Shown here: one piece after another, positions 42,329 through 51,282 of the stretch
Numbering within the stretch: position 1 is the first letter of the stretch
How the letters are laid out: each line of letters starts with the position of its first letter
Assembly (NCBI RefSeq): GCF_000737325.1
Contig: NZ_CP011125.1
Span: forward strand, 10,181,945-10,245,944
Direction of reading: 5' to 3'
From: Sandaracinus amylolyticus
GTDB lineage: Bacteria > Myxococcota_A > Polyangia > Polyangiales > Sandaracinaceae
DNA: 64,000 nt
Made by a program: the position numbers and the translations under genes
Notes under the pieces: generated by a model
Told to the model about the DNA's origin: nothing
The model's input: only the letters and a program-made list of their open reading frames with translations
Databases searched by the model: none

Positions 42329-45300
42329 ATGAGGCGACACCACGTCGTGATCGTGGGGGTGGTCGCGCTCGCGCTGGTCGCGTGTGGGCACCGCACCGAA
42401 GCGGTGGACGCCACGGTCGCGACGCTGCGCACGGTGCGCGGAGACGTGCGCGCGGGGGAGGACGTCGCGGGTCCTCGCGCGCGGGTCGCGCCCGGTGCGA
42501 TCGTCACGACGGGTGAGGCCTCGCGCGCTCGCCTCGAGCTCGACGGAGGCGGCGCGCTGCTGCTCGATCAGGGCGCGCGCCTCACCGTCGCCGCCGAGGA
42601 CGCGATCGCGATCGACGCCGGGCGCGTCTACCTGCGCGCGCACCCCGGCGACGCCGTCGCGATTACGATCGGCGAGGCCGCGCTGCGCGCCGCCGATGCC
42701 GCGCTCTCGATCGAGCCGACGCGCGTCTACGTGGTGCGCGGCGAGATCAGCTATCGCGTCGGCGCGCATCGCGGCGTGATCCGCGCCGGCGAAGAAATGG
42801 CACTCGGTGCCACTTCTTCCGGCCCGCCCGCGATCACGCCCGCGACGTTGTGGAGCGACTGGACCGGCGGCCTCGTGCGGCCCGGGCCCGACGGCGGCGA
42901 CGTCGCGCCCGGCATGGGCATGCTCGAGGCGCGTGTGCCCGACGAGATCGGCGTCGCGCGCTGGGCGCTCACGATCCGCCGCCTCGACGTGCGCGTGCGC
43001 GTCGACGGCGACCTCGCGATCACCGAGGTCGAGCAGGAGTTCTTCAACCCCGCGAGCGAGACCGTCGAGGGCCTCTATCGCGTGTCGGTGCCCGAGGGCG
43101 CGGTGCTGCAGCGCTTCGCGGTCGATCGCGACGGCACGATGGTCGAGGGCTACGTGCGCGAGCAGCAGCAGGCGCGCGTGGCGTACGAAGCGCAGGTCTA
43201 TCGCGGCTCGACCGACGATCCCGCGCTGCTCGAGTGGGACGCCGCGGGACGCTATCGCGCGCGGATCTATCCGATCGCGCCCGGCGAGGTGCGGCGCATC
43301 GCGATCCGCTACGCGGAGTGGCTCGGGGCCGCGCGCGAAGGTGGGCCGCGCCTCTATCGCTACCCGATGGGCGCGGGCGATCGCGCGCCGCACGTGCAGG
43401 AGATGTCGTTCGTCGCCGATCTCGCGCGCGCCGGTGCGCCGCACGTGCGCGCGGGCATGGGCGCGGTGGTCGAGGGCGACTCGGTGGTGCTCCGGCGCAG
43501 CGACTTCCGTCCGCGCAGCGATCTCTGGCTCGAGCTGACGAGCGACGAAAGCGGGCGCGCTCAGCGCGCGTACCGCGCGCGCCACGAGCCGCCGCCGCGC
43601 GCCCCGGGATCGCGCGCGATCGTCCACGAGGCCGACGAGCGCGACTACTGGTTCCTGCCGCTGCGACTGCCCGCGCGGCTGACCGAGCGCACGAGCGAAG
43701 GCGGGATCGATCTCGTCGTGGTCGCCGACGTGAGCGCCGCGACGGATCGATCGCACCTCGAGCTCGGTCGCAGCGTGGTCGAGTCGATCGCGGCGCACCT
43801 CGGGCCGCGCGATCGACTGAGCATCGTGGGCGCCGATCTCGCGATCCGTCCGCTGATCGAGGGCGAGGGCGCGACCGCGCTCGGACCGGCGAGCGGCGAG
43901 CGCGTCGAGGCGCTGCTCGAAGGGCTCTCGCGCGTGCCCGCGGGCGGCGCGACCGATCTCGGCGCGGCGATCGCGGAGGCCGCGGCGCTGCTCGATCCTG
44001 CGCGACCGGGCGCCGTGGTGTACGTCGGCGACGGTGCGCCGACCGTCGGTGAGCTCGGCGCGGAGCAGCTGCTCGAGCACTTCGCGCGGCTGCCGCATCC
44101 GGTGCGTCTGTACGCGATCGGCGTGGGCTCGAGCGCGAGCCGAAGCCCGGGCGCGCATTGCGCGACCGCGCGTGAGGCCAATGCATCCGACGGCCCGCTC
44201 GGGGCCGTTGGATGCAGCAACCTCGATCTGCTCGACGCGCTCACCCAGGGCGGTGGGCTCGCGCTGCGCGTCGAGGAGCGCGGGCAGTCCGCCGAGGCGG
44301 CGCTCGACGTGCTCGCGCACGCGCAGCGTCCGCTGCTCTCGCGCGTGACGGTCGAGCTCGGCACCGGCATCGACAACGTGTTCCCGCGGCGTCCGGTCGA
44401 TCTCACGTCGGGCGACGTGCTCGCGATCGTCGGTCGGGTGCGCGACGACCCGCCGAGCGAGATCGTCGTGCGCGGCGAGGTCGCGGGCGCGCCGTTCGAG
44501 GAGCGCATCGCGGTGAGCACCGAGACGCGCGCCGAGACGGTGGATCTGCGGCTGCGCTGGGCGGGCGAGCGCCTCCATCAGCTCTTGCTCGGAGGCGCGA
44601 GCCGCGAGGAGATCGCGGAGCTCGGCACGCGGTACGGGCTGATCACGCCGTTCACCAGCTACTACGTGCCGAGCGCGCGCGAGCTGCGCGAGATGGGGCA
44701 GCTCTCGCGACTGCTGCGTCACGAGCCGCTCGTCGACCCGAGCGTGGCCGCGGAGGAGTCGACGCTCGCGCAGATCGCGCTCGGCATCGCGCTCGGTCCG
44801 CTCGCGCTCACGGGCTGCACCACCAGCGCCGAGCCGCCGACTGGATCGAGTGCGACGAGCGACCCCGGTGCGCTCGAGGAGGTCGAAGAATCGCCGCCGC
44901 CGCAGCAGCCGGGAGCGACGGAGACCGCGACGAGCACGCAGACCGAGAGCGCGCGCTACGGCGTCGAGGGCAACGGCGCGAGCGCGGCGGTGCCGCTCGG
45001 TCAGGAACGCGTCGACGCGCCGCAGCCCGCGCCCGCGCCGCCGCCCGCGACGACGGCGCCCGTGCTGCCCGCGGAGCCCGAGGCCGCGGCGGCGCCGGTC
45101 ACCGGCGCGACCACCGATCGCGCGCCGGCGCGCAGGGCGGAGCCCTCCCCCGACGAGATCCGCAGTCAGCTCGATGCGCTCGGCTACGCCCCGGCGGACG
45201 GCTACGGCGGCCTCGGTATCCGCGGCACCGGCCGCGGCGGAGGTGGCAGCGGCGAAGGCACGATCGGCCTCGGCAACCTCGGCGCGATGGGGCACGGCGC

Positions 45301-47143
45301 CGGCGACGGAACCGGCCAGGGCTACGGCTCGGGCGCGGGCGGCTCCAGCGGTCGTCGCGCCGCGGTGCCGCAGGTGCGGTTCGGTCAGGCCGAGGTGCGC
45401 GGCGCGCTCTCGAGCGAGGTGATCCGTCGCGTCGTGCGACGGCACGTCAACGAGGTGCGCTTCTGCTACGAGCAGGAGCTCGCGGCGCGCCCCGATCTCG
45501 AAGGGCGCGTCACCGTCGGCTTCGTCATCGGCGCCACCGGCGCCGTGCAGGGCGCGGGCGTGACCGACAGCTCGCTCGGCAACCCGCGCGTCGAGGGATG
45601 CATCGCGCAGGCGGTGCGTCGCTGGACGTTCCCTTCGCCCGACGGCGGCGGCGTGGTCGCGGTGACGTATCCGTTCGTGCTCGAGTCCTCCGGCGGGTCG
45701 GGCGCGTACATCCAGCCCACGTCGACGACGACGCGCACGACGACGACGATCATCGTCACCACCACGACCGCCGACGATCACGCGCGGCGTCGCTGCAGCG
45801 ACGCGGCGTCGCGCTCGCTCGACGATCGCCGCGCGCTGTGGCGCGAGCGGCTCGAGCAAGCGAGCGGCACGTGGGGATGGGTCGACGTCTATCGCACCGC
45901 GATCCGCGACTGCGAGACGCCGGGCTGGCGCGATCGCCGCGCGCTGCTCTCGCTGATGCTCGCGCGCGCGGGCTCGCTCGCGACGATGATCGAGCTCTAC
46001 CAGCAGATGACCGAGGGCTCGGCGCGCGGCTACTTGCGCGGTGAGATCCTGCGGCGCGTGCGCTCGCCCGAGGATCTGCGCCTCGTGCGCAACGCGTTCG
46101 GTCTGAGCGGCGGGGTCGACTGGTCGCTCGTCGAGCAGGTGCTCGCGCGCGCGACGACGCCTGCGGCGCGGCTGCGCGCATTGCGTGAGCTCGTCGCGCA
46201 GCGGCCCGATTCGTTGGACCTCCAACTACGTCTGCTCGAGGAGCTCGAGCACCAGCAGCGCATGCCCGAGGCGTTCCGCCTCGCGAGCACGATGCGCCTC
46301 GATCCGCTCGCCGACGCAGGCGTGCGCACCGCGATCGGCGAGATGTACCTGCGGCACGATCGCGAGCCCGACGCGCGCCGCGCGTTCAGCGAGATCGTGG
46401 AGTTCGCGCCGCTCGACGAGCTCGCGCGCCGTCGCCTCGGGGACCTCTACCGCGCCCACGGCTGGTACGACGACGCCTATCGCCAGTACGCGACGCTCTC
46501 CGCGATCCGTCCCGACGATCCCGGCGTGCTGCTCCTGCTCGCGCAGGCCGCCGCGGGCGCGGGGCGCGTCGACGAAGCGCTGCGGCTCGAGCAGCGGCTC
46601 ATGGAGACGGCCGAGCCGGGCGCGCGCGAAGGGCTCGCGCGCATCGCGCAGCTCTGGTCGAGCGTGCGCTTCGCGAAGTTGCGCGAGGACGCGCGGCGCA
46701 ACGCGGACGAGGCGCGCCTCGCGTCGCTGGTCGCGCGCATGCGCCGCAGCGGCGTGCTGCGCGGCGCGGGCGACATGCGGGTGTCGCTCACGTGGTCGCA
46801 TCCCGACGCGCAGCTGGCGCTCTGGGCCGCGCATCCGGGCCTCTCGCCGACGCGCCCCGAGGACCTCGCGCCCGAGCTCGGCATCGAGGCGTTCGACGTC
46901 GCGGAGCAGGAGAGCGGTCCCTATCGCATCGAGGTGCGCCGCTCGAGCCGCGATCGCCTCGGCGCGATCGAGGGCGAGCTCGTCGTGGTGTGGCACGAGG
47001 GACGCCCCGACGAGCGCATCCAGGTGATCCCGCTGCGGTTCGACGCCGAGCGACGCGCGATGGCGTGGACGATCACCGGCACGAACATCGCGGAGACGAC
47101 GCCGCTCGAGACCACCACGCTCGCGACGCGAGGGAACCGCTGA
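42329..47143 (+). CDS. Giant lipoprotein 1: FecR-like, VIT, VWA, AgmX/PglI-like, TPR regions
   Basis: This 1604-residue protein begins with a lipoprotein signal (VVIVGVVALALVAC). By rough residue: 30-175 FecR-like (VRGDVRAGEDV, LELDGGGALLLDQGARL); 215-340 VIT domain (ADL-type TEVEQEFFNPASETVEGLYRVSVPEGAVLQRF); 460-650 VWA with degenerate metal site (VVADVSAATDRS); 760-780 a VIT/VWA end (YGLITPFTSYYVPS); then an internal lipobox-like LALTGC at 825-830; 840-1012 Pro/Ala and Gly-rich linker; 1013-1120 AgmX/PglI-like (VRRHVNEVRFCYEQELAARPDLEGRVTVGFVI); 1150-1460 TPR-like helices; 1480-1600 a beta domain (VSLTWSHPDAQL). GAGGGAGG precedes ATG 42329. The stop overlaps the start of its paralogue. It probably scaffolds protein contacts in the envelope. 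Confidence 0.92.
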   Translation: MRRHHVVIVGVVALALVACGHRTEAVDATVATLRTVRGDVRAGEDVAGPRARVAPGAIVTTGEASRARLELDGGGALLLDQGARLTVAAEDAIAIDAGRVYLRAHPGDAVAITIGEAALRAADAALSIEPTRVYVVRGEISYRVGAHRGVIRAGEEMALGATSSGPPAITPATLWSDWTGGLVRPGPDGGDVAPGMGMLEARVPDEIGVARWALTIRRLDVRVRVDGDLAITEVEQEFFNPASETVEGLYRVSVPEGAVLQRFAVDRDGTMVEGYVREQQQARVAYEAQVYRGSTDDPALLEWDAAGRYRARIYPIAPGEVRRIAIRYAEWLGAAREGGPRLYRYPMGAGDRAPHVQEMSFVADLARAGAPHVRAGMGAVVEGDSVVLRRSDFRPRSDLWLELTSDESGRAQRAYRARHEPPPRAPGSRAIVHEADERDYWFLPLRLPARLTERTSEGGIDLVVVADVSAATDRSHLELGRSVVESIAAHLGPRDRLSIVGADLAIRPLIEGEGATALGPASGERVEALLEGLSRVPAGGATDLGAAIAEAAALLDPARPGAVVYVGDGAPTVGELGAEQLLEHFARLPHPVRLYAIGVGSSASRSPGAHCATAREANASDGPLGAVGCSNLDLLDALTQGGGLALRVEERGQSAEAALDVLAHAQRPLLSRVTVELGTGIDNVFPRRPVDLTSGDVLAIVGRVRDDPPSEIVVRGEVAGAPFEERIAVSTETRAETVDLRLRWAGERLHQLLLGGASREEIAELGTRYGLITPFTSYYVPSARELREMGQLSRLLRHEPLVDPSVAAEESTLAQIALGIALGPLALTGCTTSAEPPTGSSATSDPGALEEVEESPPPQQPGATETATSTQTESARYGVEGNGASAAVPLGQERVDAPQPAPAPPPATTAPVLPAEPEAAAAPVTGATTDRAPARRAEPSPDEIRSQLDALGYAPADGYGGLGIRGTGRGGGGSGEGTIGLGNLGAMGHGAGDGTGQGYGSGAGGSSGRRAAVPQVRFGQAEVRGALSSEVIRRVVRRHVNEVRFCYEQELAARPDLEGRVTVGFVIGATGAVQGAGVTDSSLGNPRVEGCIAQAVRRWTFPSPDGGGVVAVTYPFVLESSGGSGAYIQPTSTTTRTTTTIIVTTTTADDHARRRCSDAASRSLDDRRALWRERLEQASGTWGWVDVYRTAIRDCETPGWRDRRALLSLMLARAGSLATMIELYQQMTEGSARGYLRGEILRRVRSPEDLRLVRNAFGLSGGVDWSLVEQVLARATTPAARLRALRELVAQRPDSLDLQLRLLEELEHQQRMPEAFRLASTMRLDPLADAGVRTAIGEMYLRHDREPDARRAFSEIVEFAPLDELARRRLGDLYRAHGWYDDAYRQYATLSAIRPDDPGVLLLLAQAAAGAGRVDEALRLEQRLMETAEPGAREGLARIAQLWSSVRFAKLREDARRNADEARLASLVARMRRSGVLRGAGDMRVSLTWSHPDAQLALWAAHPGLSPTRPEDLAPELGIEAFDVAEQESGPYRIEVRRSSRDRLGAIEGELVVVWHEGRPDERIQVIPLRFDAERRAMAWTITGTNIAETTPLETTTLATRGNR
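42791..42819. repeat. Imperfect palindrome inside giant gene 1
   Basis: GAAGAAATGGCAC (42791-42803) and GTGCCACTTCTTC (42807-42819) pair with one mismatch around a 3-nt loop. It lies within the codons for GEEMALGATSS, and its composition is lower in GC than its surroundings. Confidence 0.75.
44182..44216. repeat. 15-bp imperfect inverted repeat within an insertion in the VWA region of giant gene 1
   Basis: TGCATCCGACGGCCC (44182-44196) pairs with GGGCCGTTGGATGCA (44202-44216), one mismatch, loop GCTCG. It encodes part of a loop that the paralogue lacks, and so may mark an inserted palindromic element. Confidence 0.8.
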
Positions 47144-50100
47144 TGCGCACGCTTCGTCTCTCGCTCGCGCTGATCCTGCTCGTCGGGTGCGGCGAGCATC
47201 ACGACCCCGCGCCGACCGTCGCGTTGGTCTCGGTGGTCCGCGGCACGACGACGCTCGAGCGCGGCGACGCGCGCGAGACCGTCGATCATCCGGCGCGCGT
47301 CGAGCAGGGCGCGACGGTGCGCACCGCCGACGATGGCCGCGCGGCGCTCACGCTCGACTCCGGCGCGTGGGTGCTCCTCGATCGCGCGACGGCGGGCGCG
47401 GCGCAGCTCGCGTCGCTCACGCTCGCGCAGGGGCGCGTGTGGGTCGACGCGTCGAGCGCGGAGGAGACGACGATCGAGACCGCGCACGGTCGCTTCGCGA
47501 GCAGCGGCGCGGCGTTCGCGGTCGAGCTCGCGGACGGCGAGACGCGCGTCTACTGCGGCTCGGGCGAGGTCACCTACGCGACGCCTCACGGGGAAGGGCG
47601 CATCGCGCAGGGCGAGACGCTACGCGCGAGCGCGAGCGCGGCGGACCTCGCGCCCGAGGCGATGTGGGACGACTGGACCGGCGGGCTCGCGGATCCCGCG
47701 CACGGTCGGCTGCGCGTGGTCGAGCGTGTCGGCGTGCTCGCGGGTCGCACGCCCTACGAGCTCGGCCGCGCGCGCACGCCGCTGCCGATCCGCGGTCACG
47801 AGGTGAGCGCCGACATCCGCGGCGATCTCGCGGTGACCGAGGTGGTGCAGACGTTCTTCAACGCGCGCTCCGAGGCGCTCGAGGGCGAGTGGAGCATGCG
47901 CCTGCCCGAAGGCGCGATCGTGCAGGGCTTCGCGGTGGACACCGGCGGCGGCTTCGTCGACGCGGTGGTCGGCACGATCCCGGTGAGCCCCGGCTATCAG
48001 CTCGGGTGGCAGACGCGCGAGACGCCGGGCAGCAAGCTCTCGTGGGACGGCCCCGAGCGCCTGCGCGCGCGCATCTTTCCGGTGCCGCCGGGCGGCACGG
48101 TGCGGGTGCGCGTTCGTTATACCGAGTGGCTCGACCGCGCCGGCGAGCGACGCACCTACGTCTATCCGATGCGCGCCGAGGGCGAGGCGCCGCTGCTCGG
48201 CGAGTTCGTGCTGAGCGTCGACACGCGCCACGCGAACGCCGGCGCGCTGCGCGCCGGGATGGGCGCGGCGGAAGAAGACGGCCGCGTCACTCTGCGTCGC
48301 AGCGACTTCCGACCGCGCGCCGACTTCTATCTCGACCTCTACGACGGCGAGCGCGCCGAGCGCGGGAGCGGCGCGATCGCGTATCGCGTGGGCGGGCTGC
48401 AGACCCAGCCGGCGGCGGAGGGCGAGGACGACTACGTGCTCTTCGACGTGCCGACCGCGGCGCTCGCGTCGGAGCGCGAGGAGACGCCGCCCGGGCCCTC
48501 GATCGTGCTGCTGCTCGACGTCTCGGGCGCGACGGATCCCGAGGATCTCGAGATCGCGCGCGGCGTCGTCGAAGCGGTGCTGCGCCAGCTCGCGCCCGGC
48601 GATCGCGTCGCGATCCGCGTCGCCGACGTGCGCGCGCGCGTGCCCGAGGGCGCGCCCGAAGGTCTCGTCATCGCGAGCGACGAGACGCGCGAGCAGATCC
48701 TCGAGTCCCTGGCGCGCGTCGACCTCGGCGGCGCGACCGATCTCGGCGCGAGCCTCCGCGATGCCGCGGCGCTGGTCGCCGGTGAAGCGCGCGGCGCGGT
48801 GATCTACCTCGGCGACGCGATGCCCACGACGGGCGCGCTCGACGCGACCGCCATCCGCGCGCAGCTCGCGACGCTCGACGCGCCGCCGCGCTTCTTCGGG
48901 CTCGCGATCGGCGACGGCGCGAACGTCGATCTGCTGCGCGCGCTCTTCGGCGAGCAGGCGAGCGCGGTGCGCGATCGCGAGAGCGCGGCGCGCGCCGTGA
49001 TGGCGGTGCTCGCCGACGCGTCGCGCGCGACGCTGCGCGGGATCACGGTCGAGCTCGGCGAGGGCGTGGAGCGCGTGTACCCGCGTGGCCCGATCTCGAT
49101 CCGACGCGGCGAGCACCTGCGCCTCGTGGGCCGGCTCGTCGACGCGCTCCCGACGTCGATCACGATCCGCGGTCAGGTCGACGGCGTCGACTTCGAGCGC
49201 GAGGTGCCGGTCACGACCGGCAGCGTCGAGGACGAAGGCGACGTGCGACGTCGCTGGGCGAGCGCGCGCCTGCGCGAGCTGCTCGATGCCGACGCGGGCC
49301 GGGAGGCGCTGGTCGATCTCGGCGTGCGCTTCGGGCTCGTCACGCCGTGGACCTCGATGGGCGTCGGAGTCACCGAGAACGCGATCCTCGCGCTGATCGA
49401 CGGCTTCGATCACGACCCGCTCGGCGTCGCGTGGGGCCTCGGCGGCGGCGGCGCGAACGTGCCGGTCACCGGGCTCACGTCGGACGAGCTCGGCTGGCGC
49501 CGTCGCATGCGGCGCGACGATCCGAGCCGCGACGCGTCGGCGCCCGAAGCGACGTGGTCGTCGCGCGTGAGCAGCACGCCGCCCGAGCCGGTTCGCGGTG
49601 AGAGCGGCGACGGTGGGCTCGGTCGTGCATCGGCCGCGCGCGCGCTGGTCGTCGGCGAGCGCGGGCCGCGGCAGTGCTACGAGCGTCGCTCGCTGGTGCG
49701 CCCCGATCTCACCGGCGACGTCACGGTGCGGGTCGCGATCGAGGGCGACGGCAGCGTGCGCAGCGCGGAGATCGCGAGCACCGGGCTCGGTGATCGCGAC
49801 GTCGAGCAGTGCGTGATCGCGGAGGTGCGCGGGATTCGCTTCCCCGCGCACGGCGGCGCGCAGGTCTCGGTCGATCACACGTTCGTGTTCCGCGTGCCGG
49901 AGCGCGAGCTCGGGACGCGACGGCAGTGCAGCGATGCGTCGCAGCAGGCGCTCGAGATGCGTCGCGCGTTGTGGCGCGAGCGCCTGTCGGGCGCGTACGG
50001 CGTGAGCGGCGCGCTCTCGGTGTGGCGCGATGCGCGCGCGCAGTGCGAGCTCGGCAACTGGCGGGCGCGGCGCACGCTGCTCGACATGATGCTCGAGCAC

Positions 50101-51282
50101 GTCGGTGGCGTCGCCGCCGAGGTCGAGCTCTATCGCGCGCTCGCGGGCGACGGCGCGGCGGCGAGCTACCTGCGGCGCGCCATCCTCCGTCACGTGCGCA
50201 CCGTGCAGGACGTCTACGACGTGCGCTGGGGCCTCGGGCTCGACGCGGGCGTCGAGTGGGCGATCTTCTCGCGCCTCTGGTGGACGAACGCCGATCCCGC
50301 GGCGCGCCTCGCGCTGGTGCGGCGCTGGCTCGAGGTCGCGCCCGACGAGATGGATCTGCGCCTGCGTCTGCTCTCGCTGCTCGAGCAGACGGGCGCGATC
50401 CCCGAGGCGCGTCGCGTCGCGCGCGAGCTGCGCGCCGATCCGCTCGCCGACGCGCGGGTGCGCACCGCGGTGGGCGAGTTCTGGCTGCGTCAGGAGAACG
50501 AGACCGAGGCGCGCCGCGTGTTCAGCGAGATCGTCGAGCACGCGCCGCTCGATCCCTGGGCGCGTCGCCGGCTCGGCGATCTCTATCGCGCGCACGGCTG
50601 GGCGGACGACGCCTACCGCGAGTACGGCACGCTCGCGCGGCTGCGCCCGGGCGAGGGCGACGTGCTGCTCCTGCTCGCGCGCGCGGCGGCGGACGGGCAG
50701 CGCACCGACGAAGCGCTGCGCCTCGAGCAGCGGCTCGGCGAGGCGACCGAGCCCGGCGTCGACGAGGGCGCGGCCTCGCACGCGCGTCTGTGGACGATGG
50801 TGCGCCTCGCGCGGCTCGAGCTCGCGGCGGCCGACGACGAGGCGATGCGCGCGGCGATCCGACGAAGGTGGCGCGAGGCGGGGGTGATGCGCGATCCGCC
50901 GGACGTGCTGGTCGCGCTCACGTGGTCCCATCCCGACGACGCGCCGGAGCTCGCGGTGCACTGGCCCGGCATCGAGGACGCGAGCGCGTTCGAGGCGGCG
51001 ACGCTCGGCGGCACCGAGCACGGCGTGCGCGCGATCCGCATCGGCGAGCGCGAGCCGGGCGATCACGTCTTCGAGGTGCGCCGCGAGGATCGCGACGCGA
51101 TCCGCGACACCACCGCGGAGCTGACGATCATCGTGCGCCCGGGCACGAGCGAGCAGCGCATCGTGGTGCAGCCCGTGACCCTCACGAGAGAGCGCCGCGT
51201 CGTGCGCTATCGCCTGAACGAGGCGAACCAGCTCGACGAGGTCGCGACGCCGACCGCGAGCGCGACGGGCGGCGCAGGCTGA
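47143..51282 (+). CDS. Giant lipoprotein 2: FecR-like, VIT, VWA, AgmX/PglI-like, TPR regions
   Basis: This 1379-residue paralogue of the upstream gene starts at ATG 47143, sharing its A with the upstream TGA (TGATG). The signal is SLALILLVGC. Regions follow the same order: FecR-like at 20-165, VIT at 205-330 (TEVVQTFFNARSEALEGEWSMRLPEGAIVQGF), VWA near 454 with degenerate metal site LLLDVSGATD, a short Gly-rich link, AgmX/PglI-like core at about 834-918 (GERGPRQCYERRSLVRPDLTGDVTVRVAI), and a TPR-like helical part at 930-1240. It lacks the internal lipobox and the long Pro/Gly linker of paralogue 1, which explains most of the size difference. Tandem, coupled paralogues suggest a hetero-complex in the envelope. 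Confidence 0.92.
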   Translation: MRTLRLSLALILLVGCGEHHDPAPTVALVSVVRGTTTLERGDARETVDHPARVEQGATVRTADDGRAALTLDSGAWVLLDRATAGAAQLASLTLAQGRVWVDASSAEETTIETAHGRFASSGAAFAVELADGETRVYCGSGEVTYATPHGEGRIAQGETLRASASAADLAPEAMWDDWTGGLADPAHGRLRVVERVGVLAGRTPYELGRARTPLPIRGHEVSADIRGDLAVTEVVQTFFNARSEALEGEWSMRLPEGAIVQGFAVDTGGGFVDAVVGTIPVSPGYQLGWQTRETPGSKLSWDGPERLRARIFPVPPGGTVRVRVRYTEWLDRAGERRTYVYPMRAEGEAPLLGEFVLSVDTRHANAGALRAGMGAAEEDGRVTLRRSDFRPRADFYLDLYDGERAERGSGAIAYRVGGLQTQPAAEGEDDYVLFDVPTAALASEREETPPGPSIVLLLDVSGATDPEDLEIARGVVEAVLRQLAPGDRVAIRVADVRARVPEGAPEGLVIASDETREQILESLARVDLGGATDLGASLRDAAALVAGEARGAVIYLGDAMPTTGALDATAIRAQLATLDAPPRFFGLAIGDGANVDLLRALFGEQASAVRDRESAARAVMAVLADASRATLRGITVELGEGVERVYPRGPISIRRGEHLRLVGRLVDALPTSITIRGQVDGVDFEREVPVTTGSVEDEGDVRRRWASARLRELLDADAGREALVDLGVRFGLVTPWTSMGVGVTENAILALIDGFDHDPLGVAWGLGGGGANVPVTGLTSDELGWRRRMRRDDPSRDASAPEATWSSRVSSTPPEPVRGESGDGGLGRASAARALVVGERGPRQCYERRSLVRPDLTGDVTVRVAIEGDGSVRSAEIASTGLGDRDVEQCVIAEVRGIRFPAHGGAQVSVDHTFVFRVPERELGTRRQCSDASQQALEMRRALWRERLSGAYGVSGALSVWRDARAQCELGNWRARRTLLDMMLEHVGGVAAEVELYRALAGDGAAASYLRRAILRHVRTVQDVYDVRWGLGLDAGVEWAIFSRLWWTNADPAARLALVRRWLEVAPDEMDLRLRLLSLLEQTGAIPEARRVARELRADPLADARVRTAVGEFWLRQENETEARRVFSEIVEHAPLDPWARRRLGDLYRAHGWADDAYREYGTLARLRPGEGDVLLLLARAAADGQRTDEALRLEQRLGEATEPGVDEGAASHARLWTMVRLARLELAAADDEAMRAAIRRRWREAGVMRDPPDVLVALTWSHPDDAPELAVHWPGIEDASAFEAATLGGTEHGVRAIRIGEREPGDHVFEVRREDRDAIRDTTAELTIIVRPGTSEQRIVVQPVTLTRERRVVRYRLNEANQLDEVATPTASATGGAG

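Follow-up and report, generated by a model that had tools for sequence, protein, structure and literature searches.

A tandem pair of large FecR-VIT-VWA-AgmX-TPR proteins with predicted inter-alpha-inhibitor-like heads in Sandaracinus amylolyticus and other Polyangia

Results

The 64,000-nucleotide stretch of the Sandaracinus amylolyticus chromosome analyzed here (the window; contig NZ_CP011125.1) contains two adjacent large genes, designated A and B (Table 1). Their lengths and the TGATG overlap between them, reported by a first-pass annotation made from the sequence alone, were confirmed. The two products are paralogues that align from end to end (38% and 44% identity); this alignment, together with Pfam and NCBIfam matches, bears out the proposed common domain order. 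Two long ORFs (1304 and 1148 aa) lie on the minus strand opposite A and B, but were rejected as high-GC artefacts because homology falls on the plus-strand frames. The pair is flanked by a CCP_MauG gene upstream and a Na/H exchanger gene downstream. A same-genus genome matches the C-terminal third of A at 97% identity and the tandem pair recurs across families, so the architecture is not a product of chance.

Table 1. Positions in the window of genes A and B and of the features assigned to them.
Feature	Position	Strand	Description	Basis
Gene A	42329..47143	+	1604 aa, lipoprotein (Cys19)	ORF and lipobox
A signal peptide and lipobox	42329..42385	+	LVAC, Cys19	
A FecR-like beta domain	42401..42853	+	Foldseek match 4m0n	Pfam 16.6 bits, below cut-off; AF2 model
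A VIT domain	42977..43312	+		Pfam PF08487, E 2.4e-20
A VWA domain	43709..44263	+		weak by sequence, clear in AF2 model
A MIDAS motif	43727-43747	+	DVSAATD, third Ser replaced by Ala	
A rest of heavy-chain-like head	44264..44728	+	hybrid strands and helices after VWA	AF2 model; 6fpy alignment
A internal lipobox-like motif	44807..44818	+	LTGC (Cys830), after hydrophobic stretch	
A linker	44819..45406	+	Gly/Ala/Pro-rich	
A AgmX/PglI (TonB_C-like) domain	45407..45682	+	with CYE...C pair	NF033768, 105.5 bits
A TPR-type solenoid	45800..46765	+	helical	Pfam TPR; AF2 model
A C-terminal beta domain	46775..47098	+	weakly like DUF2135	AF2 model
A-B stop/start overlap	47141..47145	+	TGATG; one base common to A stop and B ATG	
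Gene B	47143..51282	+	1379 aa, lipoprotein in window (Cys16)	ORF and lipobox
B signal peptide and lipobox	47143..47190	+	LVGC, Cys16	
B FecR domain	47314..47571	+		Pfam 31.8 bits, above cut-off
B VIT domain	47791..48120	+		Pfam, E 3.3e-10
B VWA domain	48502..48945	+	MIDAS DVSGAT	Pfam VWA_3
B AgmX/PglI domain	49669..49893	+		NF033768, 62.0 bits
B TPR-type solenoid	49927..50892	+		Pfam TPR; comparison with A
B C-terminal beta domain	50911..51228	+		alignment with A

Both chains follow one order: FecR-like domain, VIT-VWA, linker, AgmX/TonB_C domain, TPR solenoid, and terminal beta domain. The five parts originally described are thus all present and in sequence, but a sixth, the C-terminal beta domain, had been overlooked, and the AgmX domain, which had been taken for a C-terminus, sits mid-chain. 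The FecR domain typical of anti-sigma regulators scores above the Pfam cut-off in B; in A it falls below (16.6 bits), with a beta domain predicted at the same place in the AlphaFold2 model, 47 of 68 relatives matching FecR, and a Foldseek partner, 4m0n, that is a putative anti-sigma factor. DUF2135 was considered as the identity of the terminal beta domain, but its match (E 0.18) is below the cut-off and is kept only as a lead. Two cysteines of A, Cys1156 before the solenoid and Cys1195 within it, are nearly invariant in the family. An internal hydrophobic-x-G-C motif after the VWA head, such as the LTGC of A, occurs in about half of the A proteins and in nearly all single-copy relatives, and is absent from B; this lipobox-like motif could be a site of lipidation or cleavage, or a vestige.

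Structure prediction of single chains was carried out on two segments of A with AlphaFold2, using an alignment of 68 sequences taken from the fetched loci and the window. Residues 25-812 gave a mean pLDDT of 91.5 and a pTM of 0.91; residues 1010-1600, comprising the AgmX domain, the TPR-type solenoid, and the C-terminal beta domain, gave 91.7 and 0.69, respectively. Foldseek matched the head model to heavy chain 1 of inter-alpha-inhibitor (ITIH; E 2.3e-28), and VIA-align superposed it on the same chain with a Z score of 20.2 and an rmsd of 6.2 over 512 residues; the 6fpy alignment spans model residues 186-768. A profile of the family alignment also retrieved ITIH4 (E 6.5e-44) and ITIH1 (E 1.3e-30). 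Given these model and profile matches, the VIT-VWA region is predicted to be one complete heavy-chain head, of the kind termed integrin-beta-like (PMC7170535), rather than a set of loose domains. For the C-terminal model, VIA returned generic TPR folds only and was uninformative on the beta and AgmX parts.

The metal ion-dependent adhesion site (MIDAS) of this head is asymmetric between the two proteins. None of the 129 sequences compared deviates at its Asp, first Ser, or last Asp, yet neither window protein has the DxSxS form of ITIH (DVSAATD in A, DVSGAT in B). The third serine is present in none of 60 A proteins, 25 of 47 B proteins, and 2 of 20 single-copy relatives. Its equivalent in human HC1, Ser302, takes part in metal chelation, and self-association of HC1 runs through the MIDAS (PMC7170535). 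The complete loss of this residue, confined to A, suggests specialization and need not mean that A is without metal.

The AgmX domains of A and B, at 105.5 and 62.0 bits, both exceed the 40-bit cut-off of NF033768, the AgmX/PglI C-terminal domain model, and residues 910-1128 of A are 67% identical to the GltG homologue of the same genome. GltG of Myxococcus is a motor-linked transducer that interacts with the motor protein AglR (PMC3169522). Against the GltG equivalog NF033760, A and B scored 165.5 and 56.1 bits, aligning to no more than the C-terminal portion of the model and falling well short of its 650-bit cut-off, which no genome of the order passes either. Neither Pfam nor NCBIfam searches matched an FHA domain in A or B. 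The genome as a whole holds 33 AgmX/PglI matches, 18 of them above the cut-off, which marks a strong expansion of the TonB_C-like domain.

The distribution of the pair was assessed through its C-terminal module, which is found in 80 of 145 genomes of the order (47 of 71 genera), mostly as two matches approximately 4 kb apart, and in 54 of 379 genomes of the phylum, all but one of these in the class of the window. A GltG homologue is present in 124 of the 145 genomes of the order. Dependence of the pair on GltG was rejected because the module is scattered across the order and GltG close to universal there. Neighborhood comparison likewise revealed no link between the pair and glt genes; with only the middle domain GltG-like, and the ITIH heavy chain structurally closest to the head, an AgmX-type motility protein is not the best description of either chain.

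When the same tandem pair was sought in other genomes, as the first-pass annotation had proposed, it recurred across families of Polyangia, with loci in Sandaracinus, Minicystis rosea, Sorangium cellulosum, Byssovorax, and Labilithrix, among others. When 129 sequences were placed in a tree, every first-position gene of a tandem pair that could be assigned fell in one clade of 60 (support 0.996), which comprises 52 first-of-pair genes, 8 single genes, and no second-position genes. Single-copy relatives (S) form a separate clade of 20 sequences (support 1.0). Translational coupling is retained: 51 of 62 tandem loci have a B-frame start codon that overlaps the stop of A, as NTGA or TGATG, and in 6 more a candidate start lies 8 bases deeper. 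The A-only clade and this overlap argue that the A-B pair is ancient and that its side-by-side arrangement has been kept across many Polyangia. Since the comparison of loci revealed no other conserved operon partner, the pair itself is the unit, and the near-strict overlap predicts that it is obligate. Distances among A proteins closely track those among B proteins (r = 0.97), as shared species history alone would suffice to produce, and B evolves about 1.3 times faster. Genomes in which one member exists alone without effect had been named as evidence that would count against the pair; lone A copies do occur, but five or more of the genomes concerned have the pair as well, so this objection does not apply. 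Two tandem loci of a distant family (L163 and L164, family f19) have second genes that belong to none of the A, B, and S clades, which may reflect an independent duplication.

Both window proteins are lipoproteins by their lipoboxes, in line with the initial description, but this does not extend to all B orthologues, some of which are anchored by a transmembrane helix instead. A lipobox was detected in 52 of 60 A proteins, and several of the remainder have one by eye. Among B proteins, 27 of 47 have a lipobox and at least 15, nearly all Polyangiaceae-type, have a clear N-terminal transmembrane helix. A is therefore predicted to be nearly always a lipoprotein, with B a lipoprotein in Sandaracinaceae and membrane-anchored in many Polyangiaceae. 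In one Polyangiaceae group (L058, L059, L061, and L070), the B protein has a cytoplasmic tail before the transmembrane helix that carries a conserved RG(E/D)xxDxAEW-like motif.

Relatives outside the pair include a more distant, sigma-coupled form. The same genome encodes a paralogue (C1:8953601-8957977) with a cytoplasmic tail, a transmembrane helix, and FecR, VIT, VWA, and TPR regions. The gene for this bitopic form overlaps an ECF sigma factor gene by 4 bases (L071:8033-12978; C1 about 8953032-8957977), and an ECF sigma gene adjoins the paralogue in 14 of 16 loci from this genome and related ones, that of the S. amylolyticus genome included. Coupling of a sigma factor to an ITIH-like head looks unusual. 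Upstream of the S relatives, a crude motif inspection of ORFs gave one sigma candidate, a 1023-residue ORF. No ECF sigma gene was found next to A and B in the window, nor any conserved neighbor across loci.

Discussion

The most economical reading of these findings is that A and B form a co-translated two-subunit scaffold or tether of the cell envelope, which we advance tentatively, at somewhat below an even chance. In each chain, an ITIH-type, integrin-beta-like head bearing a MIDAS-type site would lie close to the membrane anchor, followed by the linker, a GltG-type TonB_C/AgmX docking domain, the TPR solenoid, and the terminal beta domain. A would be a lipoprotein, probably of the outer membrane, while B, a lipoprotein in the window, would have an inner-membrane anchor in many Polyangiaceae; binding of A to B would then create either a periplasmic link between the membranes or a two-headed receptor. 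We infer the membrane side of each chain, the A-B contact, metal binding, and the tether or receptor role; the equal amounts and hetero-complex originally proposed for A and B are likewise predictions. This reading draws on the ITIH-like head and the MIDAS-dependent self-association of HC1, the conserved gene order and coupling, the distinct anchors and asymmetric MIDAS of A and B, the AgmX match to GltG, and the lack of AgmX in the single-copy relatives scanned. Against it, coupling would suit any stoichiometric pair, even proteins that never touch, inner-membrane anchoring of B is not conserved (it is a lipoprotein in Sandaracinaceae), and lone extra copies of A exist. The third MIDAS serine is also missing from both window proteins, so a metal-bridged contact may not apply there.

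Of the alternatives, the one that survives best, though we still consider it unlikely, is that A and B are a signal-sensing pair descended from transmembrane ECF sigma regulators of the FecR type and still serving as ligand sensors or co-receptors that feed a regulator located elsewhere. The sigma-coupled paralogue and the RGERxDVAEW-like motif in the cytoplasmic tail retained by some Polyangiaceae B proteins point this way, but neither a sigma nor a kinase gene is a conserved neighbor of A and B, both window proteins are lipoproteins with no cytoplasmic part, and we know of no role for an AgmX domain in FecR signaling. A less likely option is that an old duplication has simply been kept in one operon and that the paralogues do separate jobs: the two are unlike in MIDAS, anchor, and evolutionary rate, and A-only copies exist, but so strict an order, with stop/start overlap maintained in many families, exceeds what an operon needs. 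It is also improbable that A and B make up a trans-envelope heterodimer of integrin-beta-like chains in the outer and inner membranes, joined through the MIDAS or through the AgmX/TPR regions; if true, this would constitute a force-bearing or signaling link analogous to integrins. Equally doubtful is a gliding focal-adhesion adhesin whose head binds substrate or prey while AgmX docks on Glt-type machinery, comparable to CglB, the VWA adhesin of Myxococcus, since the integrin-like VWA head, the closeness of the AgmX domain to GltG, and the wide occurrence of GltG homologues in the order are set against a module that is present in far fewer genomes and not at glt loci, two near-complete genomes (G027 and G100) with the pair and no GltG match at 1e-60, and a GltG domain that is one among the many AgmX matches of the genome.

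The pair probably arose from sensor-like ancestors with FecR and an ITIH head through gain of a GltG-type AgmX domain and duplication, a direction that we infer. Relatives in single copy and those coupled to a sigma gene suggest how a sensor could have turned into a structural scaffold. In what order these events took place is uncertain, since B looks paraphyletic under the rooting of the 129-sequence tree and is a single clade in a smaller one.

The suggestion that the system is undescribed has held: profile searches of A and B turned up no known fused family, neither Pfam nor NCBIfam has a full-length model for either chain, and we found no description of the chain or tandem pair in the openly licensed literature; one elsewhere is possible. 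The parts themselves are known, while the chain, the tandem pair, and the conservation of that pair are apparently new. The single-copy S relatives of Polyangiales and sister orders share the FecR, VIT, VWA, TPR, and C-terminal modules, but have no AgmX match in the four scanned, are not in tandem, and are mostly anchored by a transmembrane helix. FecR-type ECF sigma regulators share the FecR domain, and one paralogue, likewise ordered FecR-VIT-VWA-TPR, is sigma-coupled; in contrast, the window proteins possess neither a cytoplasmic anti-sigma part nor an adjoining sigma gene. Transducers of the GltG/PglI type (NF033760) have the AgmX/TonB_C domain with a Gly-rich stretch ahead of it, whereas A and B lack FHA and A lacks the GltG-type inner-membrane helix. 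Marine sortase target and other VIT-VWA proteins (TIGR03788) resemble A and B across the VIT-VWA-hybrid region, but that model, which A and B match at 79 and 58 bits against a cut-off of 551.65, does not cover the regions flanking the head. The closest likeness is to ITIH1 and ITIH4 (PDB 6FPY and 9C4F), with which A and B share, as judged from profile and predicted fold, the full VIT, VWA, and hybrid head; unlike these, A and B are bacterial lipoproteins with added FecR, AgmX, TPR, and C-terminal beta parts, and A is without the third MIDAS serine. The pair is thus apparently a variant of the VIT-VWA/ITIH-type proteins, a conserved two-gene envelope module of one bacterial class built on the head of animal matrix-stabilizing, integrin-like proteins.
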